A DNA stretch of 39,003 bases from Candidatus Palauibacter poriticola. Its GTDB lineage: Bacteria; Gemmatimonadota; Gemmatimonadetes; Palauibacterales; Palauibacteraceae. The first letter of the stretch is position 1. Each line of letters opens with the position of its first letter. The DNA lies in the NCBI GenBank assembly GCA_012270965.1, contig JAAXHJ010000094.1, forward strand, positions 1-39,003, given 5' to 3'. Below are positions 10,368 through 23,794 of the stretch, one piece after another. The notes beneath the pieces were generated by a model. The model saw only the letters and a program-made list of their open reading frames with translations, had not been told where the DNA came from and did not search any database. A program made the translations under genes and the position numbers.

Positions 10368-11684
10368 TCAGTCGCGTCCGGCGGTCTCCGGCAGCAGATC
10401 GTCCGCGTGACGTACCACGAGGACGCGCTGGATGTCGAGTTCGTCCCGCTCGATGTAGGCGAGCAGGCCGCCGGGCCCGAAGGCCCCCGGAATTCGCAGG
10501 CCGTCCGGCGCAATGGTGCCGAAGTAGCGTCCATCGGCACCGAGGATATCGATGGGGCCCGTGTCGCCCGGCAGGGCGGAGCGCTGGACCCAGAGACGAT
10601 CGCTCCAGTCCACGGCGAGGCTCGTGATGACCGGCATCTCCGCCGGGAAGGCGAGCGCCCGGATCTGGTCCTCCCACATCATCCTCCGCATGGCTTCGCG
10701 CATGGCCTCCGAGTTCATGGGGTTTCCGCCCGCGCCCGCCGTCCCTCTGATGCTCAGGGTCATGATGCCGCCGCCACCCCCTCCGCCGCCGGCCTCGAGG
10801 TTCGCAAGACGACGTTCGCGTTCGGCCTGCTCGATCGCCGGCGTCACGACGACCGGCGGCACCGAGCGTTCGAGCGTCGACACGACGGTCCCGGACGGAT
10901 CCAGCAGTTTGACGCGGTAGCCGATGGAGTCGGCGATGGCGACCCGTCCATCCCGCAGCACGGCCACTTGGAGCGGTAGAGGAAACGCCTCCCCGGCCTC
11001 CACTTGTATCTGAACGTTTCCCGCCTCCGCTTCATCGACGCGAGTCTCGGCCGGAAGGCCTGCCCAGGCCTCATAGAACAGGTCCCGGGTTCCATCGAGC
11101 CGGAAGCGGGTAATCGGGCGACGCTCCTCGCGCTCCATTACGCCTTCCGGGGAAAAACTCACACGGCTGGAGGCGGCGATGAGGCTGTGATCGGGCATCG
11201 CGCGCAGCGATCCGGAGGGCGTGGCCCCGTCTTGGTCGATCCGGAAGGTTTCGAGGAAGTCTCCCTCGCGGCTGAACAGCGCGACTCCCTGGTTCCCGAA
11301 ATCGCGCACCCCGACGCGACCGTCGCGAAACATTATGAGGCTGGAGGGGCGACGTAGTTCGCCGGGCCCTTCGCCCTCGCTTGAAATCGTGCGGACGAAC
11401 TCTCCCGCCGGATCGATGACGACGATGTGCCCCGCGCGGCTGTCGAGGATGAAGAGGTATCCGTCCGCGTCGAACGCGACCGACGCGATGCGGCCGAACA
11501 TCTCCCACTGCTCGCCGTCGAGCACTCCCACGGCGTACAGCGTATCGACGGCGGGCGACAGCGCCACATTCGGGCTGTCGAGCCCCCGGGCGCCGGAACC
11601 GCCGTCCCCGCCGCAGGCCGCGGCGGACAGCAAGACCGGAACGAGTGTGGCGCGGGCGGCATGACGGGCCGAGTGGAGCGCCAT
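10368..11684 (-). CDS. Six-bladed beta-propeller lipoprotein (tandem paralogue 1)
   Basis: The product is a 438-residue lipoprotein with a signal peptide ending in the lipobox LSAAAC. Propeller blades start at about residue 45: VGVLDGEQWEMFGRIASVAF, DGYLFILDSRAGHIVVID and EGEGPGELRRPSSLI. A Gly-rich linker (GGGGGGG, residue ~305) separates the propeller from a final part. The start at 11684 has a strong GAAGGAGAAGG site. The gene lies 29 bp after the stop of a close paralogue on the same strand, and the two 3' ends share a long, nearly identical DNA stretch, so they arose by tandem duplication. It is the last gene of the minus-strand operon beginning at 18055. The role is unknown; a surface-exposed binding or scaffold protein is likely. 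Confidence 0.85.
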   Translation of the reverse strand: MALHSARHAARATLVPVLLSAAACGGDGGSGARGLDSPNVALSPAVDTLYAVGVLDGEQWEMFGRIASVAFDADGYLFILDSRAGHIVVIDPAGEFVRTISSEGEGPGELRRPSSLIMFRDGRVGVRDFGNQGVALFSREGDFLETFRIDQDGATPSGSLRAMPDHSLIAASSRVSFSPEGVMEREERRPITRFRLDGTRDLFYEAWAGLPAETRVDEAEAGNVQIQVEAGEAFPLPLQVAVLRDGRVAIADSIGYRVKLLDPSGTVVSTLERSVPPVVVTPAIEQAERERRLANLEAGGGGGGGGIMTLSIRGTAGAGGNPMNSEAMREAMRRMMWEDQIRALAFPAEMPVITSLAVDWSDRLWVQRSALPGDTGPIDILGADGRYFGTIAPDGLRIPGAFGPGGLLAYIERDELDIQRVLVVRHADDLLPETAGRD

Positions 11685-20497: not shown

Positions 20498-20640
20498 GGT
20501 ATCCGTCCCTCGTGACCTCTCTAGGCTGTTCAACGCCTGCGGTTCGGTGTCCCGGGCGGCCGGTAGGCCATACGTTGCCCGAACGGGCGGGCCGTCACGC
20601 CGCGCACCCGTATCAACGTAGCCTGACGACCGGGAACTCG

Positions 20641-21933
20641 ATGATCAAGTCACTTCGCCTCGTCGACTTCAAGGGTTTTGCGGACGAAACCCTCGACGTC
20701 GGGCCGTTCACGGTCGTCGTGGGCGCGAACGCAAGCGGCAAGAGCAACATTCGCGACGCCTTCCGCATCCTGCACGGCATCGGGCGCGGATACAGCCTCC
20801 CCGAAATCCTCGGGGGTCGATACGGTCCGGGGGGCGAACGTCAGTGGAACCCGATTCGCGGCGCGCCCGGAGAGATCGCACGTCTTGGCCGACCGTCGTT
20901 CGCGCTGACGGTTGCGTTGTCCCTGGCGGGGCAGTCGACTGCTAAACCTGCTAAGGCCCAATACGGCATTAGAATTGCGGCGGATGGCGGAGCCACTCAG
21001 GAGTTCCACGTACTTGAGGAACGGTTGACCGTGCGGAATGCGTCGATCTATACGACTCACCCGCCCCCTTCGGATCCCGTGGCGAAGCAGGACGACGAAC
21101 CCGACCTTCTTCTCCGAATGGCGAAAACGGGAACCCAGAGAAAGTACGGGCATCGGGTTGCGGTGCGACCGAATCAACCGGCGCTGACGCAGATTCGCGA
21201 ACACAAGAAGGTGGTGCGCCGGCATAAGGATTACGCCCAGCGGGTCATCGACGTTCTCGCCAACATGCGTTTCCTCGACCTCCTTCCGGACAGGATGCGG
21301 CAGCCGGCGTTCCCCGGGCAGAGTACGCTCGGAGACCGAGGAGAGAATCTGCCTACGGTACTCAAGGAGATCTGCGAGGACCCCTCCCGCCGCGCTGCGT
21401 TGGTGTCGTGGATTCGAGAGCTTACTCCGATGGATGTGGAGGATCTTGAGTTCGTCCCGGACCGGACCACGGGCTTGATTCAGCTCGTCTTCCGTGAAGC
21501 TGACGGGAGCCGCATTTCGGCCTACTCGGCATCGGACGGGACGCTGCGTTTCCTCGCGGTTCTGGCAGCTCTTCTCGCCCAGAATCCGGTCGGCTTGCAT
21601 GTGTTCGAGGAAATTGACAACGGCATTCATCCGTCGCGTTTGCGTCTCCTGCTCGACCTGATCGAGAGTCGGGCCGAGAAGGGGCGGACGCAGGTCATAA
21701 CGACAACACATTCCCCCGGCCTGCTCTCGATGGTGGGCGACGCGACATTCGATAGTACCGGCGTCGTCGTCCGCCGACCGGATTTGAACGACGGCGTTAT
21801 CGCCTCGGTCGCGAACCTTGCCGACGCCAAGAACCTGCGGGCATCCCACGGGCTGGGCAGGTTGCTGGAATCCGGTTGGCTGGAAGATGCCGTGATTTTT
21901 TCGCTCCCCAACGACGGCGCCGACGGTTCCTGA
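20641..21933 (+). CDS. AAA/ABC-type ATPase of a two-gene ATPase-TOPRIM module
   Basis: The product is a 430-residue ATPase of the SMC/RecF/OLD-like AAA_15/AAA_21 type. Residues 1-11 (MIKSLRLVDFK) form the usual first strand. Walker A is GANASGKSN (28-36), the ABC signature region is SAYSASDGTLRFL, Walker B is HVFEEIDNGIHP (320-331) and the H-loop is TTTHSPGLL (H357). The middle is charged and would hold the coiled-coil or insertion of this family. There is no C-terminal TOPRIM domain, unlike OLD nucleases; that function appears to be supplied by the next gene. GC content is visibly lower than in flanking genes (for example 20935-21240), suggesting acquisition. The start ATG at 20641 has no clear ribosome site. 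Proteins of this type serve phage-defence pairs such as PARIS and Septu. Confidence 0.85.
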   Translation: MIKSLRLVDFKGFADETLDVGPFTVVVGANASGKSNIRDAFRILHGIGRGYSLPEILGGRYGPGGERQWNPIRGAPGEIARLGRPSFALTVALSLAGQSTAKPAKAQYGIRIAADGGATQEFHVLEERLTVRNASIYTTHPPPSDPVAKQDDEPDLLLRMAKTGTQRKYGHRVAVRPNQPALTQIREHKKVVRRHKDYAQRVIDVLANMRFLDLLPDRMRQPAFPGQSTLGDRGENLPTVLKEICEDPSRRAALVSWIRELTPMDVEDLEFVPDRTTGLIQLVFREADGSRISAYSASDGTLRFLAVLAALLAQNPVGLHVFEEIDNGIHPSRLRLLLDLIESRAEKGRTQVITTTHSPGLLSMVGDATFDSTGVVVRRPDLNDGVIASVANLADAKNLRASHGLGRLLESGWLEDAVIFSLPNDGADGS

Positions 21934-21934
21934 A

Positions 21935-22504
21935 TTGAACGTACTCATCGTCCCGGAAGACTTCCGCAAGGATCAGTACATTCTCAGGCCGCTCTTCCAG
22001 AGGCTGTTTCGGAACCTCGGGAGACCGGCCGCGAGAGTCAGGGTTTGCCAGAACCCGCTCTTGGGAGGGATCCATCAGGCACTCAACGTCGAACGCCTGT
22101 CCGAGATCGTCGACCAATACCGCGGCATGACCGACCTGTTCATCCTTTGCGTCGATTGCGATGGGCGAGCTGGTCGGCGGCACCAGCTCGACGGAATCGA
22201 ACAGCAATTCGCCGACTCGGCGGTGTTCTTTGCAGAGAACGCTTGGGAGGAGCTGGAAACGTGGGTGTTGGCTGGAGTGCAGCTTCCTAGCGATTGGAGC
22301 TGGTCGGAGGTCCGAGCCGAGGTGCAGGTCAAAGAGGTCTACTTCGACAGATTCGTCCGCCGTCGAGGCCTGGAGGATCATCCTGGCGGGGGCCGGAAGC
22401 CGCTCGGGGAGGAGGCGGCGCGACGTATGGATGCCATTCGAGCGAAGTGCCTGGAGGATTTCGATGCGCTGGCGCAACGAATAAGCGACTGGCTCTCGGA
22501 ATAA
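21935..22504 (+). CDS. Small TOPRIM-like (DUF4276-like) putative nuclease partner
   Basis: The product is a 189-residue protein starting with TTG at 21935, one base after the ATPase stop. The N-terminal strand carries an acidic residue (IVPEDF, E8), followed by a Rossmann-like core with the strand LFILCVDCDG, giving an Asp-x-Asp pair (D74, D76), and an acidic helix FFAENAWEELETW (E101-E107). An E at the first strand plus a DxD is the layout of TOPRIM metal sites, as in DUF4276 and DUF4435 partners of defence ATPases. The assignment is by pattern only. The stop is four bases before the aconitase X start. The likely role is a nuclease or effector released or controlled by the ATPase; an antitoxin or regulator role cannot be ruled out. 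Confidence 0.7.
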   Translation: MNVLIVPEDFRKDQYILRPLFQRLFRNLGRPAARVRVCQNPLLGGIHQALNVERLSEIVDQYRGMTDLFILCVDCDGRAGRRHQLDGIEQQFADSAVFFAENAWEELETWVLAGVQLPSDWSWSEVRAEVQVKEVYFDRFVRRRGLEDHPGGGRKPLGEEAARRMDAIRAKCLEDFDALAQRISDWLSE

Positions 22505-22507
22505 TCG

Positions 22508-23794
22508 GTGGACTCGACCGAATCGGGTAGCCTCCGGCTAGATGGACCGGACCTAGCCCTCCTGCGGGGAGACGAGGGAGAGGGTACGCGGCTTGCGATG
22601 GCGATCCTCGTGCGGATGGCCGAGGTAGTGGAGGCGCGGGAGTTGCTCGACATCACGGCCGCGCATATCGACTCCTCGCTCTACCAGGGGCCGGCCACGC
22701 TCGAGTTCGCGGAGCGTCTGGCGGAGGGTGGCGCGCGGGTACGGGTCCCGACGACGCTCAACGTCTCCGGGGTCGACGAACACGGCTGGCGCGAGTGGGA
22801 CGTGCCCGAATCCTGGGCGGCACCGGCGCGGCGCCAGATGGAGGCGTACGAGGCCATGGGCTGCGAGCCCACTTGGACGTGCGCGCCCTACCAGACCCAG
22901 CCGCGTCCGGGCGTCGGGGAGCAGGTCGCGTGGGGCGAGTCGAGCGCGATCGTGTTCGCGAACTCGGTGCTGGGCGCGCGCACCGAGCGCTATCCGGACC
23001 TGTTGGATATCTGCTGCGCGGTCACGGGCCGGGCCCCGGCCGCGGGGCTCCATCTTGCCGAGAATCGGGTGGGACGGGTGCTCGTCGATCTTTCCGGCCT
23101 CCCGCGGCGGCTCGCCCAGGAGCCCGCGCTCTATCCGGTGCTGGGACACTGGGTCGGCCTGCGCGTCGAAGGGCGGATCCCGGTGCTCGACGGGCTCCGG
23201 GCCCGGCCGGGAGAGGACGACCTGAAGGCGCTGGGGGCCGCCATGGCCTCCTCGGGTGCGGTGGGCCTGTTTCACTGGGTCGGCGTCACGCCGGAAGCGC
23301 CGGACACGGACGCGGCGTTTGAGGGGAGGGAGCCGGCGACTCGTCTCCGTCCGGGGCTCGCGGCGCTGCGAGCGGCGCGGGACGAACTCGGCTCGGGACT
23401 GTCCGACGCGGACGGCCTCGACCTTGTCGTGCTGGGGAGTCCGCACTTCTCGCTGTCGGAATTCGCGACCCTGGCGCGGCTCGTTGACGGCCGGCGACGC
23501 CACCCGGGGGTGCGGCTGTTGATCACGACCGGCCGCGCCGTGCGCGCGCTGGCGCGGGAGGCCGGCTACTTGGACGCCATCGAATCGTTCGGAGGAGAGC
23601 TGACCGTCGACACCTGCATCCTGACGACGCCCATGCTGCCGGGGAGCATCCGCCGACTCATGACCAACTCCGCCAAGTACGCATGGTATACGCCCGGCCT
23701 GCTCGAGCGCGCCGTCGCCTTCGGCAGCCTGGCGGACTGCGTGGAGTCGGCCGTCGCCGGTCGCGTCACGCGCGACGACGGCGCGTGGAGCTAG
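22508..23794 (+). CDS. Aconitase X large (catalytic) subunit
   Basis: The product is a 428-residue protein matching the AcnX catalytic domain: AAHIDSSLYQGPATLEFAE near 48-66, CEPTWTCAPYQTQPRPGVG, WGESSAIVFANSVLGARTERYPD, and the late segments LVVLGSPHFSLSEFATLARL and VDTCILTTPMLP. AcnX enzymes are [Fe-S]-dependent dehydratases; characterised members are cis-3-hydroxy-L-proline dehydratase and phosphomevalonate dehydratase. The GTG at 22508 comes three bases after the TOPRIM-like gene's stop and lacks a ribosome site, so translation probably depends on ribosomes finishing the upstream gene. The small subunit follows 10 bp downstream. Which substrate is used is undecided: no proline or mevalonate genes are visible here. 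Confidence 0.88.
   Translation: MDSTESGSLRLDGPDLALLRGDEGEGTRLAMAILVRMAEVVEARELLDITAAHIDSSLYQGPATLEFAERLAEGGARVRVPTTLNVSGVDEHGWREWDVPESWAAPARRQMEAYEAMGCEPTWTCAPYQTQPRPGVGEQVAWGESSAIVFANSVLGARTERYPDLLDICCAVTGRAPAAGLHLAENRVGRVLVDLSGLPRRLAQEPALYPVLGHWVGLRVEGRIPVLDGLRARPGEDDLKALGAAMASSGAVGLFHWVGVTPEAPDTDAAFEGREPATRLRPGLAALRAARDELGSGLSDADGLDLVVLGSPHFSLSEFATLARLVDGRRRHPGVRLLITTGRAVRALAREAGYLDAIESFGGELTVDTCILTTPMLPGSIRRLMTNSAKYAWYTPGLLERAVAFGSLADCVESAVAGRVTRDDGAWS

Follow-up and report, generated by a model that had tools for sequence, protein, structure and literature searches.

The window analysed here, a 39,003-nucleotide stretch of Candidatus Palauibacter poriticola DNA, contains two adjacent genes, A and B, of which A encodes an OLD/AAA_21-type ABC ATPase and B a small Toprim-like protein (Table 1). 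Their neighbours are a divergently transcribed Asp/Glu racemase gene, a gene for a PGA_cap protein, and the gene for aconitase X (AcnX) with its swivel gene. The initial annotation of this DNA had seen no metabolic context for the pair, which does not hold, as its immediate neighbours are the racemase and aconitase X genes. The frame of a 189-residue second protein, one base after A (21935-22504), was confirmed, and its TTG start at 21935 is supported by the aligned B homologues, which begin at or near the same residue.

Table 1. Features of the A-B locus (window coordinates) and of the viral copy of the pair (coordinates of contig L085).
Feature	Position	Strand	Remarks
Gene A, OLD/AAA_21-type ABC ATPase	20641..21933	+	430 aa (430 codons; ATG at 20641, stop at 21933); Pfam AAA_21 2.9e-30
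A, Walker A GANASGKS, residues 28-35	20722..20745	+	G33, K34, S35 invariant in 25 aligned proteins
A, ABC signature-like SASDGT, 296-301	21526..21543	+	S298-D299-G300-T301 invariant in 25 aligned proteins
A, Walker B / D-loop VFEEIDNGIH, 321-330	21601..21630	+	F322-E323-E324 invariant in 25 aligned proteins
A, H-loop TTTHSP, 354-359	21700..21717	+	H357 invariant in 25 aligned proteins
Gene B, Toprim-like, putative remote DUF4276 relative	21935..22504	+	189 aa; TTG start, 1 base past the A stop
B, motif 1 E8-D9-F-R-K-D13, predicted metal ligands	21956..21973	+	After strand 1 (model strand 2-7)
B, motif 2 D74-x-D76, predicted metal A ligands	22154..22162	+	End of strand 68-74 (model); 82/82 loci
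B, motif 3, residues 101-110 (E101 to W110)	22235..22264	+	W104, E106, E108 in 82/82 loci
B, K133	22331..22333	+	82/82 loci
Interval between racemase and AcnX genes	20501..22507	.	Occupied in the window and 1/14 relatives fetched; empty in 13/14
A-B pair in L085	4875-6703		Between tape-measure gene and other structural genes

The Walker A, signature, Walker B and H-loop motifs proposed for A were all located (Walker A at residues 28-35), and their presence in one AAA_21/AAA_15 protein identifies A as an OLD-type ABC ATPase, a type reportedly treated in a classification paper on ABC ATPases. In agreement with the proposed lack of a nuclease domain, Pfam returned no nuclease family for A at E up to 1, nor was any further Pfam domain found beside AAA_21. 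With matches judged by E value, not by PADLOC's own cut-offs, four PDC-M07A models matched A (4.8e-67 to 6.2e-62), followed by HEC-01A (2e-40), AriA (2.2e-31), mad3 (3e-23), AbiLi (1.1e-22) and NsnB (3.5e-15).

For the B protein of the window, Pfam yields no match at E up to 1. Its structural model (pLDDT 94) displays an alpha/beta fold, 158 residues of which align to the OLD Toprim domain (6nk8). The structural matches are middling, with OLD tied with other Rossmann-like folds, and fold searches with an earlier, shallower model gave no significant match; Foldseek of that model retrieved a viral RloB-like protein with a probability of 0.87 (E 0.047), and hhalign of B against RloB, the partner protein in RloAB/AbiL, represented by three sequences only, gave 0.2. 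The residues follow the Toprim pattern, namely a glutamate near strand 1, a later D-x-D and a further acidic ligand, which are positioned at or just after the ends of model strands. Conservation was counted over 82 loci (80 genome loci, the viral contig L085 and the window), because L027, the one locus that has G instead of E8/D9, lies outside the 95-row B set; E8/D9 are present in 81 of them and D13 in all. By analogy with OLD nucleases, E106 and E108 are predicted to correspond to the metal B ligands, and K133 is a candidate for the transition-state Lys/Arg. Of the acidic residues initially listed, E8, D74 and D76 stand, and the helix given as E101-E107 is to be replaced by the set E101, E105, E106 and E108. 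The model, the structural alignment and the conserved residues thus support the proposed Toprim-like second protein; a Toprim fold is likely, and B is quite probably a nuclease of the Toprim type.

In database searches B had 2,011 relatives; for A, 7,998 candidates were scored, of which 4,233 proved to be relatives. The best 120 were listed for each. By a pattern scan, 134 loci encoding relatives of B were located in species genomes, and in the best 80 of these the pairing that had been expected across genomes is conserved throughout: A is located directly upstream of B in 79, and in the 80th (L077), whose contig starts inside A, a recognisable C-terminal end of A just precedes B. The two genes overlap by four bases in 72 of the 80 loci measured (79 in genomes and one in a viral contig). 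In the reverse direction, with samples from Gemmatimonadota, Chloroflexota and Cyanobacteriota and with the search centres and the window left out, B was present in nine of ten loci found by A, the exception being L174. Four loci carry a broken or shortened B next to a recognisable A, as if B were costly to its host, although these may be sequencing errors: an in-frame stop is found in L039 and L083 (= L161), which were chosen for B, and among the loci found by A, B is interrupted in L168 and internally shortened in L169.

Trees of A and B were built from 75 of the 80 genome loci plus the window, leaving out L085 and loci with a short or interrupted A or B. Eleven phyla (NCBI ranks) are represented among the 75 of 76 tree rows with a named phylum. 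The distances in both trees correlate (r 0.72, with none of 999 permutations as high), and the B and A trees need 20 and 22 phylum changes, respectively, against a possible minimum of 10, which suggests transfer. The pair was also found in named, non-metagenomic genomes, those of Pleomorphomonas sp. JP5 and Iningainema tapete and on a Brasilonema plasmid, and in none of the E. coli genomes searched. A and B form a unit of conserved pairing that probably moves horizontally.

Within the genus, the pair occupies two of 15 racemase/AcnX sites, those of the window and of G010 at the same place, while in 13 of the 14 regions fetched from other genomes the racemase gene adjoins AcnX without it. B is present in two of 17 genus genomes, the window's included (two of 40 genomes of the whole search), and AcnX in 16 of the 17. 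On a broader scale, at E 1e-60 the A profile matched nothing in 295 of the 301 Chloroflexota and in 288 of the 292 Cyanobacteriota sampled. As initially noted, codon use is less GC-biased than in the surroundings, with a GC3 of 0.735 for A and B compared to 0.869, 0.874 and 0.892 in three neighbouring genes. When the window is compared with G010, dS is 0.35-0.42 for three flanking genes, whereas A has a dS of 1.46 and the synonymous sites of B are saturated; the dN/dS of 0.09 for A indicates purifying selection. The pair has therefore diverged more than its flanks, which makes it likely that it arrived independently or was replaced at a hotspot, and disfavours a single ancestral insertion in the genus. 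In the IMG/VR contig L085, which belongs to a contractile-tail phage or prophage, the pair is adjacent to a tape-measure gene; of ten ORFs tested there, eight have matches in structural families of PHROGs (baseplate, tail, tape measure, sheath, neck, major head, head protease and portal). One of 72,556 plasmids has the pair (Brasilonema pBOCT1, with an integrase gene approximately 2 kb upstream of A), none of 50,697 phage records has it, and two additional viral scans gave no further contig with B. An accessory, mobile distribution is borne out by the two positive genomes in 17, the 13 empty sites in 14, the low GC3 and the copy in a phage region.

Several further observations concern the surroundings of the pair. 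In the window, AcnX starts with GTG three bases after the B stop codon, and the seven or eight residues at its N-terminus (within 22505-22580) do not align with AcnX of most pair-free relatives; the pair, on arriving, may have replaced the start region of AcnX and joined it to the A-B transcript. The spacing between the PGA_cap and racemase genes is around 1.3 kb in six genus genomes (L146-L149, L154 and L158) and around 160 bases in the window, and there may be a second variable spot next to the racemase/AcnX site. In five Caldilineaceae loci (L017, L032, L044, L057 and L076, at about 10636-11646) an ORF of approximately 337 codons lies just downstream of B. Five proteins encoded near the pair match a methionine-synthase domain and perhaps correspond to these ORFs.

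The expected enrichment in defence islands was not found. ORFs within two positions of the pair (120 scanned of 292) matched 73 PADLOC models at 1e-10, as compared to 151 for ORFs at least 6.5 kb away (120 of 191), and in neither set was any PADLOC family matched by two or more proteins; the neighbour ORFs came from a crude script and the counts are per family, not per defence protein, so that small effects would be missed. The 25 commonest Pfam families give the near neighbours a metabolic appearance. The usual guilt-by-association argument for defence consequently fails for this pair.

The relationship of the pair to named candidate systems was scrutinized for both proteins. B does not match the PDC-M07B models, either for the window protein (E up to 10) or for 32 B proteins (E up to 1). 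Five loci of the same phylum with PDC-M07A (L091-L095) encode ATPases 27-29% identical to A, and their downstream partner matches PDC-M07B in L091 (4.5e-54) and L092 (1.3e-35). This partner is PIN-like, with PF13638 matching one of them at 0.001; L093 and L095 show a partial match to it and L094 none, which gives a PIN-like partner in four of the five loci, two of them partial. The label PIN was set for all five in the trees by ATPase match, including L094 with its differing partner. The 264-aa protein of L094 (2766-3560), which follows the PDC-M07A-type ATPase with a four-base overlap and matches neither a PADLOC nor a Pfam family at E 0.01, is possibly a third partner type. Plain membership in PDC-M07 was rejected for the pair, since B is not the PIN-like PDC-M07B.

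The PADLOC model nearest to B is HEC-01B (Hma-embedded candidate 01), at 0.02 for the window protein, and among 32 B proteins, 11 have a weak match to one HEC-01B model, PDLC04210, at best 3.1e-4. Similar to the pair, HEC-01 combines an ATPase, whose model ranks second for A, with a small partner, but the match on the B side is thus marginal. DUF4276 (PF14103) is likewise encoded beside AAA_21 ATPases: an ATPase ORF lies within the same 4-6.6 kb in 19 of 20 Gemmatimonadota DUF4276 regions fetched (of 42 matches), the E-x-E-x-W motif of B recurs in 13 of 24 DUF4276 proteins, and hhalign of B against the pooled DUF4276 set gave a probability of 90.3 (E 1.5e-6; B proteins shorter than 180 or longer than 205 residues left out), compared to 1.4-21.9 for separate subgroups and 0.1-1.9 for controls. 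B nevertheless remains below the Pfam gathering score (at E up to 1, seven of 32 B proteins match, with 0.0012 as the best value), and its ATPases form a clade of their own. From these profile comparisons, B appears to be a remote relative of DUF4276. Pfam DUF4276 proteins also occur beside different ATPases in G002 and G011 (L103/L180 and L101/L178), so that the genus holds several modules of an ATPase and a DUF4276-like protein.

In a first ATPase tree, with 11 of the 19 DUF4276-linked ATPases, the B-linked ATPases form one clade (100/99) and the PDC-M07A ones another (100/100). A second tree, with 16 of the 19 and an RloB-linked outgroup, recovers both clades (97/91 and 100/100), and the B-, PDC-M07A- and DUF4276-linked ATPases form a comb without branching order. 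An effector swap of known direction was accordingly rejected, as the RloB-rooted comb gives no order of events. The claim that the pair is not covered by current names stands in part: its ATPase is caught by PADLOC as PDC-M07A and B weakly as HEC-01B, and the combination of A and B does not fit PDC-M07. No paper was found in the literature searched for DUF4276, PDC-M07 (with PADLOC) or HEC-01, and the pair is unnamed as far as this literature and the model libraries searched extend. PDCs and HECs are described in parts of two sources as candidate systems, most PDCs being untested (PMC12988326, PMC11811056), and a passage of PMC12409345 reports no measurable defence for two further PADLOC candidates tested in their native host.

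Among characterised systems, the pair is similar to PARIS in comprising two genes, an ATPase without a nuclease domain and a separate Toprim or Toprim-like effector. The Toprim domain of AriB is DUF4435. In contrast, B matches neither the PADLOC AriB models (E up to 10) nor Pfam DUF4435 (E up to 1), searches in which the HMMER filters discard most weak matches, and the AriA score of A is far below its PDC-M07A score. With OLD nucleases of classes 1 and 2 the pair shares the ATPase type, the order of the Toprim metal-site residues and the 6nk8 alignment, but its ATPase and Toprim are separate proteins. That OLD-type ATPases are paired with Toprim, HNH, PD-(D/E)XK or PIN nucleases has already been published (a passage of PMC12839542). 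The OLD-ABC ATPases near BREX described there are of the same type and have exchangeable nuclease partners, whereas the present pair is a lone cassette, and the B family is not named in that passage. PARIS itself has been proposed as OLD class 4 (PMC10568477, in part). We conclude that the pair is best read as an OLD-type ABC ATPase combined with a Toprim effector, PARIS-like in organization and placed outside both PARIS and PDC-M07 by its partner.

According to the part of PMC12409363 consulted, AriA of PARIS senses a phage protein, upon which AriB dimers are released, are probably activated and nick tRNAs. With a probability of roughly 0.58, we propose, by analogy with AriA/AriB and OLD, that A and B constitute a horizontally moving, PARIS-like defence module. 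A would assemble and keep the small Toprim-like B inactive; when a phage or another mobile element is sensed, A would release B or switch it on; and B would then cut nucleic acid by two-metal catalysis, which would stop the infected cell through abortive infection. An action against phages or other mobile elements seems somewhat probable, supported by the analogy to OLD-type ATPase and Toprim systems, the strict pairing, the patchiness, the hotspot behaviour and the one phage-borne copy. AriB acts on tRNA and OLD on DNA, and either could be the substrate of B; RNA is weakly favoured, since A has no further Pfam domain and B, like AriB, is separate and small.

Two other readings keep a minor but appreciable share. 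The pair may be a toxin-antitoxin-like addiction or anti-plasmid unit in which A restrains a toxic nuclease B, with any phage defence a mere side effect; such a role would suit an overlapping two-gene operon found on a plasmid, in a phage region and as lone insertions away from defence-rich regions, as well as the four loci that keep A with a damaged B (sequencing errors permitting). Against it stands that only one plasmid and one viral contig of very large sets carry the pair. About equally improbable is that the pair is in fact HEC-01 or PDC-M07 and differs only through incomplete models. PDC-M07A is the best match of A, PDLC04210 grazes B proteins, and PDC-M07A partners vary, as L094 illustrates; against this, four of the five same-phylum PDC-M07A partners are PIN-like (two partially), their ATPases share under a third of their residues with A, and the B-linked ATPases branch apart from them as one clade.

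A much smaller share falls to B being a Rossmann-like nucleic-acid binder, similar to the end-binding Argonaute MID domain, in a pair that senses or marks nucleic-acid ends. The MID-like matches span approximately 115 of the 189 residues, compared to 158 for OLD and 170 for PH0156, and the conserved E8/D9/D13, D74-x-D76 and E106/E108 fit a metal site, which to our knowledge MID domains do not have. Least probable is a function in DNA repair or chromosome maintenance, with a RecF/SMC-like ATPase and a RecR- or primase-type Toprim partner. SMC heads and one OLD protein are the closest solved sequence relatives of A, and Toprim domains are known in RecR and DnaG, where they were reportedly described by Aravind in 1998; yet B is missing from 15 of the 17 genus genomes, the A profile had no match at E 1e-60 in nearly all Chloroflexota and Cyanobacteriota sampled, and GC3 and synonymous divergence look foreign. 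A housekeeping repair role was rejected on this patchiness, and no homologue assigned to a housekeeping function was found.

Beyond the proposed PARIS-like defence module, a wider reading remains tentative and on balance doubtful: an immune system in at least eleven phyla, in which a PDC-M07-type sensor bears a minimal Toprim nuclease of 189 aa in place of PIN, and which enters chromosomal hotspots and phage genomes as a lone cassette, a habit outside defence islands by which guilt-by-association searches would have overlooked it. The role of Toprim nucleases in defence systems is called largely unknown in a passage of PMC12409363, and a stand-alone Toprim effector of 189 aa would offer a compact model for such nucleases. 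If the interpretation of the pair is right, the effector borne by related ATPase sensors can be PIN-like or Toprim-like, and immune modules can occur as lone cassettes next to metabolic genes, in places that searches based on islands pass over.
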